Positions 1,635 through 4,128 of a DNA stretch of 13,193 bases are shown here, piece by piece. Numbering within the stretch: the stretch's first letter is position 1; each line of letters starts with the position of its first letter. A program made the position numbers and the translations under genes. The stretch is from an uncultured Anaerolineae bacterium. Its GTDB lineage: Bacteria; Chloroflexota; Anaerolineae; Anaerolineales; Villigracilaceae. The DNA lies in assembly GCA_903854805.1 (NCBI GenBank), contig CAINXK010000470.1, positions 1 through 13,193 of the forward strand. The letters run 5' to 3'. Below the pieces are notes generated by a model. It was not told the origin of the DNA, did no database searches, and saw only the letters and a program-made list of their open reading frames with translations.

Positions 1635-1967
1635 TTATCCGTTTCGGTACCCGCATTGCAGACAGAAGGGTGCATTGACAGGTAACCTTGAACCACAACT
1701 GGCACACTTGGCAACCATCTCGAGAGCCTGGCCACAGCCGTGGCAAAATCTGGCGCCTTGCACAGTTTGCGTGGAACAATTGCGGCAAACGATGTCTGGT
1801 AGCAAAGCCGAAGGGTTGGCCAAGGCTTGCTGGAATGAGTTTCCCGGAGGTTGTTGGCGATGATCATGGTCATGGTCTTGATCGTGATGATCCCCGTTTT
1901 GGAACATTCCACCGGTTCTTCGACGTTTGCGGTCGCCAAAATCGAGCAGGTCTTCTAGAAAGTCCAT
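1635..1967 (-). CDS. Double zinc-ribbon protein with His/Asp-rich linker
   Basis: 110-residue protein starting MDFLEDLLDFGDRKRRR. An ATG 8 codons upstream (1991) is in frame, but AGGA lies 7 nt before the ATG at 1967, so the shorter form is chosen. The C-terminal half carries two CxxC-x10-CxxC zinc ribbons: Cys61/64/75/78 and Cys88/91/102/105. Between the acidic/basic N-terminus and the ribbons is a run DHHDQDHDHDHR at 27-38, which could bind metal ions. Such zinc-ribbon proteins are probably adaptors or nucleic-acid-binding factors, and the exact role is unknown. It is the first gene of the four-gene leftward operon. Confidence 0.8.
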   Translation of the reverse strand: MDFLEDLLDFGDRKRRRTGGMFQNGDHHDQDHDHDHRQQPPGNSFQQALANPSALLPDIVCRNCSTQTVQGARFCHGCGQALEMVAKCASCGSRLPVNAPFCLQCGYRNG

Positions 1968-2049
1968 CTTTAGTTCCTTTACAATATGCACGCCAATAGC
2001 AATCTCTAGCTTAAAAAAGCCAGGTGGTCTAATGCGCGCCCTGAGAAAA

Positions 2050-2071
2050 GGAAATGATTTGAACCATTTCC
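2050..2071 (-). terminator. Hairpin with T-run, minus strand
   Basis: On the minus strand GGAAATG pairs perfectly with CATTTCC around an 8-nt loop and is followed by TTTTCTC. It lies between the 99-residue gene and the zinc-ribbon operon. The stem is AT-rich, so its strength is uncertain. It could end the riboswitch transcript or serve as a leader element of the next operon. Confidence 0.4.
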
Positions 2072-2080
2072 TTACAGAAA

Positions 2081-2117
2081 CAGGTCACAGCAGCCAGAGG
2101 CTGTTGTCTGCTACCTG
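2081..2117 (-). terminator. Long imperfect hairpin after the 99-residue gene
   Basis: On the minus strand CAGGT pairs with ACCTG, enclosing ACAACAGCC / GGCTGCTGT (one mismatch) with a TCT loop, followed by TTTCTGT. It begins about 20 nt past the stop of the 99-residue gene and fits its terminator. The internal loop is asymmetric. Confidence 0.45.
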
Positions 2118-2135
2118 GATGGGCATCTTTTTAAA

Positions 2136-2435
2136 TTAGGAGTGTTTTGGAGGGGGAAAATGGGGAGATAAGGAAATGGTTTGAAAATCTAGATTCACGG
2201 GTCTGGATTTTGAAAAAATTAAATCTGCGATTGTGGCGCCAACAACTGTTATGATAAAAAGTTCTTCATCAGTCTCAGCCAGGTTAAATAGATTGCAATT
2301 CTCAGATGCAACTTCGGGAATCTCCAACACAGGCATATCGATAGCATTTAAAATCGGTATGCCTGTCAGACTGCTTAAATAAAAACAGAAGATCAGGGTT
2401 GCCCAAAAAACTTGAGAACTGCGTAGCTTAACCAT
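2136..2435 (-). CDS. Uncharacterised 99-residue protein downstream of a Mn2+ riboswitch
   Basis: I do not recognise this family. The N-terminus is basic (MVKLR) and followed by a hydrophobic stretch at about 9-31 (FWATLIFCFYLSSLTGIPIL, then NA), which could be a signal peptide or a membrane anchor. The remaining 68 residues include an acidic part (ETDEE near 54-58), a second moderately hydrophobic segment LFIITVVGATIADLIF at about 59-74, and a C-terminal tail rich in Pro and Ser. The single Cys of the mature part is near residue 47. The ATG has no good Shine-Dalgarno; GGGTG lies 13 nt upstream. The gene sits about 95 nt after the riboswitch terminator, with no other sizeable frame between, and is followed by two hairpins, so it appears monocistronic. 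A role in manganese handling is inference from the riboswitch only. It might also be a non-genuine frame. Confidence 0.5.
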   Translation of the reverse strand: MVKLRSSQVFWATLIFCFYLSSLTGIPILNAIDMPVLEIPEVASENCNLFNLAETDEELFIITVVGATIADLIFSKSRPVNLDFQTISLSPHFPPPKHS

Positions 2436-2530
2436 TTTTGATGTAATTTACACCCAATTGAACAAGGTTAGTAATATTCGGTATCGAAACAACTCAACTT
2501 CATCGCAGATTTTATATTACAAGCTTGCCA

Positions 2531-2566
2531 AAACAAAAAGACCAACGCAAATAGATAGCGATGGTC
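2531..2566 (-). terminator. Riboswitch expression-platform terminator
   Basis: On the minus strand GACCA-T-CGC pairs with GCG-T-TGGTC (one T/T mismatch) around a 9-nt loop and is followed by TTTTTGTTTT. Its 5' arm contains the CCATCG that forms the 3' side of the riboswitch P1 helix, so the two structures exclude each other. Confidence 0.85.
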
Positions 2567-2650
2567 TTGCATTTTCTTTCAGACAGCCGGGAAATTTCTT
2601 TCCGTCTTGACGACTGTCCATCCCAAAAGCTGGGCGGCTACTCCCCATCG
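2559..2650 (-). ncRNA. yybP-ykoY manganese riboswitch
   Basis: Read on the minus strand, all hallmark elements of the yybP-ykoY family occur in order: P1 5' strand CGATGG (2650-2645), the conserved loop GGGGAGTAGC just inside it, a short P2-like arm (GCCCA..TGGGA), a GACAG/CTGTC helix holding TCGTCAA on one side and CCCGGCTGTC on the other, and the closing GCAAGACC followed by P1 3' strand CCATCG (2564-2559). This family binds Mn2+ and normally turns on Mn-efflux genes (MntP, TerC/Alx, P-type ATPase). Here P1 overlaps a terminator, so Mn2+ binding should favour read-through. A promoter lies at the correct place just upstream, and the first gene downstream is the 99-residue unknown protein. 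Confidence 0.93.
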
Positions 2651-2660
2651 GAGTAATTTA

Positions 2661-2689
2661 AGTGTACAGGATATCGATGGCGAAGTCAA
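2661..2689 (-). promoter_or_regulatory. Sigma70-type promoter of the riboswitch transcript
   Basis: On the minus strand -35 TTGACT (2684-2689) and -10 TACACT (2661-2666) are separated by exactly 17 bp. The predicted transcription start falls at about 2653-2655, a few bases before the riboswitch P1 helix. A 12-bp tandem repeat lies just upstream of the -35. Confidence 0.75.
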
Positions 2690-2691
2690 TG

Positions 2692-2715
2692 GTTTTTCTG
2701 TCAGTTTTTCTGTCA
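2692..2715. repeat. 12-bp perfect tandem repeat upstream of the riboswitch promoter
   Basis: GTTTTTCTGTCA occurs twice head to tail (2692-2703 and 2704-2715), starting 2 bp beyond the -35 box of the riboswitch promoter. It could be replication slippage or a pair of activator sites in phase. Nothing in the sequence decides between these. Confidence 0.8.
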
Positions 2716-2791
2716 GTTATCAGGTCTCTTTTTGTGTTTTGCCTTACTGCTCAGGTATCGAAAATATAGGGTTGTCAAAAGAATAAAAATC

Positions 2792-2970
2792 GTGGACAAT
2801 CAAGGCGTGGAAAAGTTACGCTTGCCAACGGACGAAGAAATCTGGAAATCATTTGATCAAGGCCAAGAAGCAGTGATTGTGCTTTTTCACGACACATTTG
2901 GGCAATTGATCGTCCATGTTCGGGCTTTAGAAGATCGGGTAGCAAAGAATAGTAGTAATAGCAGGAAAGC
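2792..2970 (+). pseudogene. N-terminal fragment of IS66-family transposase (TnpC)
   Basis: About 60 codons, possibly from the GTG at 2792, read VDNQGVEKL, then PTDEEIWKSFDQGQEAVIVL, then VRALEDRVAKNSSNSRK. This matches the N-terminal leader of IS66 transposases, which typically runs through a short coiled coil into LEDRLxKNSxNSSKPPSSDG. The reading breaks off right after NSSNSRK, where SKPPSSDG is expected. There is no DDE catalytic domain, no orfA/orfB partner and no clear terminal inverted repeat. It is a remnant of an insertion, fused out of frame to the receiver-like fragment downstream. Family call from motif, fairly sure; exact left limit uncertain. Confidence 0.7.
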
Positions 2971-3069
2971 TGCGCGGTGCGGGTCGCATACAACAGTAAA
3001 GCTGCGCTGGATTTTGTGCACGATGAACGACCTGATTGCATTGTGCTGGACCAGAAACTGCCCAAATAG
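2971..3069 (+). pseudogene. Response-regulator receiver-domain fragment
   Basis: In the frame beginning at 2971 about 32 codons run to a TAG at 3067-3069 and read VRVAYNSKAALDFV, then ERPDCIVLDQKLPK. This has the look of the middle of a CheY-like receiver domain: the alpha2 segment with AALDFV, then beta3 PDCIVLD whose Asp is the usual phosphoacceptor, then KLP. There is no start codon, no beta1 acidic pair and no C-terminal half. The frame is closed by a stop at 2959 upstream. The piece abuts the IS66 fragment in a different frame, so both look like debris from a deletion or recombination. The short length limits certainty. Confidence 0.5.
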
Positions 3070-3108
3070 AATTCAACCTTGAATATCTTCAATGAATGAG
3101 ACGCAAAC

Positions 3109-4128
3109 ATGACCATAACCCGTAAAGAACGCATGCGAAAAGCCCTGCAGCACGAACAGGTCGACCGCCTGCCAACGCAAATCAACTACACCGCTGGAAT
3201 GGGCCAGAAAATGGCAGAGCATTTTCGAGTCTCTGAAAAAGACCTGCCTTCATTTTTGGGCAATCACATGGTCAGGGTCGATCTGAACACCCCGGCGCAC
3301 TTGAGCACAGACGGTAAAGTCAAATTTGATTGGTGGGGAGTAGGTTTTGATACCAACGAAGAAGGTTACTTTGCCGCAGTCAACCCGCTCAAAGACAATC
3401 CCAACCTGGATGCATATCCATGGCCGGATCCATCTGACGTTAAGCTCTTCGAGAAAGCCAAACAGGTTATTCAAGAAAAAGGGAGTGAGTATTTCATCAC
3501 CCCCAATTTTGGTTTTGCATTGTTCGAACGCGCCTGGACACTGCGCGGTTTTGAGCAATTTTTCATGGATATGGGCAGCGACCCAACCTATACCGGCGAA
3601 TTGCTCGACCGCATCACAGAGATCCAGTTAAAGCTCATTCATCAATATCTCGACCTGGGCATTGATGGCGCTTATTTTGGTGATGATTATGGCGCTCAGA
3701 AAGGTCTGCTATTCTCTCCGGCAATGTGGCGGAAATACATAAAACCTCGCCTGCAAAAAATGTTCAAGCCATTTATTGAGCGCGGAATGCCGATCCTGAT
3801 GCACTCTGATGGACAGATCCAAAAAATTCTTCCCGACCTGCTTGAAATTGGCCTGACCACCCTAAACCCGGTACAGCCGGAAGTTCTGGAGCATGGCTGG
3901 CTGGCCGACAACTTCAAAGGTAATTTGGCTTTCTATGGCGGCATCTCCACCCAAACAGTGCTGCCTTATGGTACTCCTGACGAGGTTCGGAATGCGATTG
4001 GCACCTGCGTTAACACCCTCGCACCTGAAGGAACTGGTCTGGTACTCGCGCCATCTCACCGCATGATGACCGATATTCCCATGGCTAATATTTCCGCCAT
4101 GTTGGAAGTATTTGGCGTATCACATTGA
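3109..4128 (+). CDS. Uroporphyrinogen decarboxylase (URO-D) superfamily protein
   Basis: 339-residue protein of the URO-D/MtaA/CmuA fold, which covers haem-pathway decarboxylases and corrinoid or coenzyme M methyltransferases. It starts with the family opening TRKERMRKALQHEQVDRLP (4-22) and has GIDGAYFGDDYGAQ at 184-197, SPAMWRKYIKP at 203-213, MHSDGQIQKILPDLLEIG at 231-248, LNPVQPE at 252-258 and GGISTQ at 277-282. In MtaA-type enzymes Zn is bound by HxC and a later Cys. Here the first motif is H232-S-D234 and the C-terminal position reads APSH (His317), so a classical Cys2His site is absent. True haem-pathway UroD is unlikely given the sequence type and context. It is paired with a sugar kinase 14 nt downstream, and its role in sugar metabolism is unknown. 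The RBS is weak (TGAGA 8 nt upstream). Confidence 0.85.
   Translation: MTITRKERMRKALQHEQVDRLPTQINYTAGMGQKMAEHFRVSEKDLPSFLGNHMVRVDLNTPAHLSTDGKVKFDWWGVGFDTNEEGYFAAVNPLKDNPNLDAYPWPDPSDVKLFEKAKQVIQEKGSEYFITPNFGFALFERAWTLRGFEQFFMDMGSDPTYTGELLDRITEIQLKLIHQYLDLGIDGAYFGDDYGAQKGLLFSPAMWRKYIKPRLQKMFKPFIERGMPILMHSDGQIQKILPDLLEIGLTTLNPVQPEVLEHGWLADNFKGNLAFYGGISTQTVLPYGTPDEVRNAIGTCVNTLAPEGTGLVLAPSHRMMTDIPMANISAMLEVFGVSH

Follow-up and report, generated by a model that had tools for sequence, protein, structure and literature searches.

A manganese riboswitch whose first gene encodes a protein of no recognised family raises the question of what the switch controls and what the protein does. Such an arrangement is found in a 13,193-nucleotide stretch of DNA from an uncultured Anaerolineae bacterium (contig CAINXK010000470.1; the whole stretch is referred to as the window), for which the initial annotation had proposed that a yybP-ykoY aptamer drives a 99-residue protein instead of a known Mn exporter or, alternatively, that the exporter was lost and the switch orphaned. 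The promoter, riboswitch, small protein (family SP) and operon genes all lie on the minus strand of the window. No paper on SP or on a yybP-ykoY riboswitch in Chloroflexota was found in the open-licence literature, and no close DNA copies of positions 1900–2800 were detected in plasmids or phages.

The aptamer (2559–2650, minus strand) was delimited by its RF00080 match, covariation and a covariance model, and shows the loop conservation and helix layout of yybP-ykoY (RF00080). Its conserved loops are GGGGAGTAG and CGTCAA, and its switch helix is formed by CGATGG (2650–2645) and CCATCG (2564–2559). The CCATCG strand is also part of an intrinsic terminator (2530–2566, minus strand), recognised from sequence, stem pairing and the covariance model, in which GACCATCGC (2566–2558) pairs with GCGTTGGTC (2548–2540) ahead of a T-run; the two structures are mutually exclusive. 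Because of this overlap, the window riboswitch should be a transcriptional Mn2+ ON switch. It resembles the transcriptional switch of L. lactis in its GGGGAGUAG and CGUCAA loops and in opposing a switch helix to an intrinsic terminator; there, Mn2+ stabilises helix P1.1 and the terminator is prevented (PMC11087558). Upstream of the aptamer, a consensus scan placed a sigma-70-like promoter, TTGACT-17-TACACT (2661–2689, minus strand; 9 of 12 consensus positions), with four such sites in the region against 2.2 expected; comparable boxes were seen by eye immediately 5′ of the aptamer in several relatives.

Rfam at its gathering threshold gave no match in the window, and at an E-value threshold RF00080 matched positions 2651–2530 with 21.2 bits (E 0.0015 in 1.1 kb), so that the Infernal search suggested by the initial annotation did recover the aptamer but left it below the cut-off of 45. 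In a control with 14 genomes, RF00080 matched in five and exceeded the cut-off in two; the model is weak for this subtype. One of its matches, at L023, was rejected as chance, as it overlaps long coding frames and lacks the riboswitch core by eye. Relatives were collected with the pattern GGGGAGTAGC-CGTCAA-AAGACC (variable gaps). It is present in 9 of the 396 genomes that sample the class and in 58 of the 152 that represent one family, whereas the reversed pattern is present in 1 and 0, respectively. The pattern detects sites at G531:C4 and G002:C121 that genome scans with RF00080 did not report, the scan missing the G531 site having been run at E 0.01 with stricter filters. Of 66 non-redundant sites, the author aligned 57 and omitted nine; the covariance model made from this alignment, which did not include the window, matched the window at 2658–2521 with 140.2 bits (E 2.3e-36), which bears out the aptamer. 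Across the 57 sites, 93.6% of cells in the aptamer helices are paired and 14 of 22 pairs have changed on both sides, a level of covariation reached by none of 500 shuffles. Pairing in the terminator stem reaches 95.7%, and its covariation is modest: both sides have changed in 3 of 9 pairs, a number equalled by 123 of 500 shuffles.

The genes behind the riboswitch were read at 79 oriented loci, comprising 70 of 75 pattern sites, the G531 site, the window and seven earlier loci, several of them cut by contig ends; a further site (G515:C10, L032) was read outside this count. Homologues of the P-type ATPase of L027 lie downstream at 67 of these loci, DedA genes at 35 (window included), genes for lamin-tail-domain (LTD) or Zn-ribbon proteins at 11, a second small hydrophobic family at 30 and SP at 13 (window included). 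This gene content, together with a score below the Rfam cut-off in the window, distinguishes the riboswitch from its closest known counterpart, the yybP-ykoY riboswitch (RF00080) of the transcriptional ON type as in L. lactis. At L022, L024, L030 and L031 the riboswitch is followed directly by DedA and then the ATPase, and at L036 and L103 by orthologues of the LTD and Zn-ribbon genes of the window. Two loci, L114 and L116, have no ATPase, DedA, LTD or Zn-ribbon gene within 5.5 kb; the first frame is a 219-residue protein, hydrophobic by eye, at L114 and a member of the second small family at L116. At L076 and L112 a frame resembling a flagellar rod/hook protein (by eye) lies behind the riboswitch, followed at L112 by Zn-ribbon, LTD and ATPase genes and at L076 by the contig end.

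Two of the ATPases (L104 and L093) were typed by model and scored 755 and 766 bits with a PMR1-type calcium ATPase model, their best match (cut-off 798). Among the solved sequences closest to that of L104 are the calcium ATPase lmo0841 and calcium-transporting ATPase type 2C member 1, which we take to be LMCA1 and SPCA1, respectively; SPCA1 carries Mn2+. The second small protein has the core WKPxxATGAGGTxxxxWFEE and roughly 72–95 residues and is hydrophobic by eye (examples are L082:445–672 on the plus strand, L093, L102, L111, L134 and L135). One member gave no NCBIfam match. It accompanies the ATPase at 28 of its 30 loci, usually just 5′ of the ATPase gene, and is the first gene behind the riboswitch at some; a role as small subunit of the ATPase or as its regulator is possible.

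In the window, SP is followed on the same strand by genes for a double zinc-ribbon protein (1635–1967; Pfam DZR/Zn_Ribbon_1, with an orthologue in the L036/L103 riboswitch operon), an LTD protein (1068–1610; PF00932, 44.3 bits, cut-off 34.3), a TFIIB-type zinc-ribbon protein (796–1071; PF13453, 61.1 bits, cut-off 22) and a DedA/VTT membrane protein (140–799; PF09335, 82.7 bits, cut-off 33.9) that is homologous to the riboswitch-linked DedA of relatives. An exporter was not seen in the window, which ends 139 nt past DedA; these 139 nt contain no start of a second small protein or P-type ATPase. A His/Asp-rich stretch, GDHHDQDHDHDH, precedes the zinc ribbons of the double zinc-ribbon protein in the window and at L036 and L103, and this protein, placed under the Mn riboswitch together with the LTD protein, is possibly Mn-binding. 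A neighbouring isomerase is 89–91% identical to its counterparts at four MAG loci, which carry the labels Anaerolinea, Anaerolineales, Anaerolineaceae and Herpetosiphon; an Anaerolineae (Chloroflexota) host is therefore the most likely.

SP itself (99 residues; 2136–2435, minus strand) was defined by homologue searches and the comparison of 157 distinct sequences. Successive searches yielded 5 relatives (E 0.01), 52 (E 1) and 135 (E 0.001), with 120 of the last 135 among the matches listed, and the comparison set comprised 158 proteins, 157 of them distinct. Organism names among the matches listed were confined to two rows, Anaerolineales and Chloroflexi, and one relative (P0123) bears an unrelated enzyme name; most of the homologues seem to come from metagenome contigs. 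As initially suspected, SP belongs to no named Pfam family: 31 members compared with Pfam at E up to 1 matched ten families (best E 0.041), DUF2946 not being among them, and no PDB relatives were found at E up to 1. The initial annotation would have been undermined by a lack of homologues and of a conserved frame; instead, the 14 closest pairs among 12 genomic copies have dN/dS values of 0.27–0.73, and on these comparisons the 99-residue frame is judged a real coding sequence.

At all 13 loci that hold it, the window included, SP comes first behind the riboswitch (two of the proteins are identical). After correction of two over-called starts, the distance between the end of the aptamer and the start of SP is 37–128 nt. 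An independent search of 152 genomes returned 11 strong copies, all at these riboswitch loci, and among the 396 class genomes G531 was the one strong addition, with SP located between riboswitch and ATPase. Two further matches were dropped as chance, namely a twelfth in the 152 genomes (G583; E 0.007, inside a 783-residue frame) and one in G330 (E 7e-4, in a frame with two stops). A first, narrow SP alignment found no relatives in genome and viral contigs, and alignment A2 found none in 147 genomes of the family of G001. Downstream of SP, 11 of the 13 loci have a P-type ATPase gene in the same orientation, the other two being the window and L100, whose contig ends 1.4 kb downstream; the notion that SP is expressed instead of an exporter is not supported by its relatives. 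The absence of SP from 66 of the 79 loci indicates that the riboswitch does not need SP, which is an optional layer, and since the riboswitch directly precedes DedA, ATPase or LTD/Zn-ribbon orthologues in relatives without it, SP is a leading cistron and not the sole target. The Zn-ribbon and DedA genes, put forward initially as a competing target, are by position in relatives targets of the switch. Judged by this gene order, SP heads an Mn-handling operon and is not a replacement for its exporter.

A hydrophobic N-terminal segment of SP is predicted by hydropathy in all 150 members that reach this region (seven shorter entries do not contain it); the second hydrophobic segment described initially is less general, reaching the same threshold in 85 of 157. 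An AF2 model (mean pLDDT 62, pTM 0.25) has helices at residues 4–31 and 57–76. Column conservation marks out a carboxylate patch, ETDEE (residues 54–58; 2262–2276, minus strand), with Asp or Glu in 97–98% of the 157 proteins at three columns and in 88% at a fourth. Two residues before the stop lies PPPK (residues 94–97; 2145–2156, minus strand), encoded by C-rich, G-poor DNA. PPP is present in 155 of the 157 proteins (the exceptions are P0138 and L065, which has QPPR), and in 148 of these 155 it is directly followed by Lys; likewise, three residues separate PPP from the end of the protein in 148 of 155. Patch and proline motif are spaced by 34 (65 proteins) or 35 residues (92 proteins) in all 157. 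Among 20 representatives with less than 55% identity, this spacing stays at 34–35 even though the residues that span it average 30% identity, and the linker ahead of the patch (28% identical) has anything from 12 to 26 residues. The relatives were found with profiles containing the motif, so its invariance partly reflects ascertainment and is somewhat inflated. PPP is absent from the last eight residues of all 108 complete operon genes other than SP, and likewise of all 171 ORFs with 150 residues or more. Between the hydrophobic segment and PPP, no column holds Cys or His in more than 50% of members.

On balance, these features lead us to favour, with modest confidence, the view that SP is a cis-acting nascent-chain regulator that acts in series with the Mn2+ riboswitch at the head of an Mn-handling operon. 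The hydrophobic N-terminus would go to the membrane, and the ribosome would pause at PPPK, immediately ahead of the stop codon, at which point the carboxylate patch, 34–35 residues upstream, would sit approximately at the tunnel exit. There, Mn2+ or membrane insertion would change the pause, and the paused ribosome, covering C-rich mRNA, would alter access to the ribosome-binding site of the next gene or to Rho. The operon would thus be gated twice, with the RNA responding to cytosolic Mn2+ and the nascent peptide to a second signal. What the comparisons establish is the layout of the riboswitch, the position of SP as leader and its anatomy and spacing; a pause at PPPK, a sensory patch close to the tunnel exit and regulation of the operon are inferred. 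Against an arrest, PPPK differs from the RAPP motif of a known system (see below) and EF-P may relieve the pause; the fixed spacing could also reflect a folded helix, with residues 57–76 predicted as helical at a mean pLDDT of 62. More tentatively, and with less confidence than in the regulator itself, SP might represent a new family of arrest peptides that sense Mn2+, or a membrane state affected by Mn2+, through a carboxylate patch held at the exit by a 34–35-residue spacer and that gate the exporter operon jointly with the riboswitch.

The main rival to a nascent-chain regulator is that SP functions on its own, as a small membrane or secreted protein that helps to handle Mn, for instance as an accessory of DedA or the ATPase, and is simply co-expressed with the operon under the riboswitch. 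The conserved reading frame with its dN/dS of 0.27–0.73 is what such a protein would show, as are the N-terminal segment in 150 of 150 members, the second segment in 85 of 157 and the second predicted helix, albeit of low confidence, and the operons do contain another small hydrophobic protein (30 of 79 loci, 28 with the ATPase). However, what is nearly invariant in SP is PPPK at the extreme C-terminus, always about equally far from the end; identity in the linkers has fallen to about 30%, and the C-terminal codons are biased at the nucleotide level. We consider a stand-alone function unlikely, though a serious contender.

This nucleotide bias admits a reading in which the peptide senses nothing. 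Over 12 distinct loci, the final 42 nt of SP contain 46% C and 10% G, compared with 23% each in the rest of the gene. Of the 50 Pro codons that fall within the last 12 positions, 25 are CCC, 20 CCT, 5 CCA and none CCG, a codon that makes up 6 of 31 Pro codons elsewhere in SP and 13–42% in downstream genes. All 12 loci have CCTCC among their C-terminal Pro codons. The C-rich end may be an anti-Shine-Dalgarno sequence, a rut-like stretch or a codon effect. In the RNA-only case, it would pair with a Shine-Dalgarno sequence or bind Rho and thereby couple the translation of SP to the next gene. In favour of this, pairing between the Shine-Dalgarno sequence of the next gene and SP codons is high at L065, L102 and L134, where at most 2 of 100 synonymous recodings reach it; against it, such pairing is unremarkable at 8 of the 12 loci and absent in the window, the motif retains its reading frame and Lys, and the carboxylate patch and its spacing are features of the amino-acid sequence. 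RNA action alone is rated improbable. SP starts without a recognisable Shine-Dalgarno sequence at 11 of 12 loci, so its translation may be weak, and a GGAG/AGGA-like site precedes the next gene at most of them.

The structure of the gap after SP was considered in the same 12 loci. A hairpin common to most of the aligned loci (CTGGCT...AGCTAG; 2006–2023, minus strand) comprises four pairs in RNAalifold, one changed on both sides, which amounts to weak covariation; a stem hiding the Shine-Dalgarno sequence has weak support as a conserved feature, and as far as these alignments go, intergenic RNA structure is barely conserved. A second, terminator-like hairpin, GGAAATGGTTCAAATCATTTCC followed by TTTT (2046–2071, minus strand), is specific to the window. 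The region of its 5′ arm (2075–2062) is complementary over 14 bp to SP codons at 2181–2168, a pairing that excludes the hairpin and scores 30 with its own locus against 20 for the highest of 11 cross-locus scores, which sets the window alone among the 12. Hairpin and pairing together would be an attenuator-like pair that is not conserved. Hairpins after the ORF, noted initially as seeming to end the transcript, are present, but a terminating role for them is at most putative: a consensus scan of 1900–3110 flagged no terminator, a weak negative, since it also missed the riboswitch's own. The arrangement in relatives suggests that the transcript of the window continues from SP into the next genes.

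A decaying or chance ORF behind an orphan riboswitch, as might be supposed from the missing family name and from the exporter not seen inside the window, is so improbable, given 157 distinct homologues, dN/dS values below 1 and riboswitches that head metal-gene operons in relatives, that both the chance ORF and the orphan switch were rejected.

The preferred nascent-chain regulator has counterparts among known leader peptides. CruR (DUF2946), a copper-responsive uORF product of Bordetella, has a fixed spacing between its Cu motif and RAPP, which lies three residues before the C-terminus; a C>G bubble in its gene harbours a putative rut site, and its signal peptide is dispensable (PMC9426467). 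SP shares with it the character of a small exported-type protein encoded first in a metal operon, a Pro motif three residues before the end, a fixed spacing between a metal motif, in SP a candidate one, and the Pro motif, and a C-rich, G-poor stretch (PMC9426467). It differs in having carboxylates rather than CXXC, a spacing of 34–35 rather than 45 and PPPK rather than RAPP, in lying behind a riboswitch and in that DUF2946 was not among the Pfam matches of 31 members. CutF, a copper-sensing nascent exported protein of Rhodobacter, likewise combines a Sec-type N-terminus, a C-terminal proline-rich motif and a leader position in a metal operon (PMC9973294). No stalled product was seen with fusions of the CutF C-terminus (PMC9973294), a caution for the proposed arrest, as is the dispensable signal peptide of CruR. 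Motifs with Cys and/or His characterise CutF-like clusters, which are rarely found in Chloroflexota (PMC9973294). Unlike CutF, SP has no Cys/His motif, and a conserved stem shielding the Shine-Dalgarno sequence was not found at the 12 SP loci. The N-terminal segment, C-terminal proline motif and fixed spacing of these systems are present in SP; unmatched by DUF2946 and devoid of conserved Cys/His, it would work like the CruR/CutF group without being a member, with the carboxylate patch as the inferred sensor. Arrest peptides of the SecM, MifM and ApdP type are similarly membrane or secretory proteins that carry a short motif at the C-terminus and are encoded ahead of the genes under regulation (PMC12992588), whereas the genes downstream of SP are metal genes and arrest at PPPK is putative.

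For the Chloroflexota, these results give a parts list of the Mn operon, namely SP, DedA, the P-type ATPase, the second small hydrophobic protein, and LTD and Zn-ribbon proteins, and a revised RF00080 model would add riboswitch sites. The metal-sensing leader peptides considered here (PMC9426467, PMC9973294) respond to copper, in some cases perhaps to nickel or cobalt, by means of Cys or His. If the proposed role of SP is true, a riboswitch and a metal-sensing nascent peptide would be combined in one leader as two-layer control, which would suggest that hard metals, too, can be read by nascent chains.
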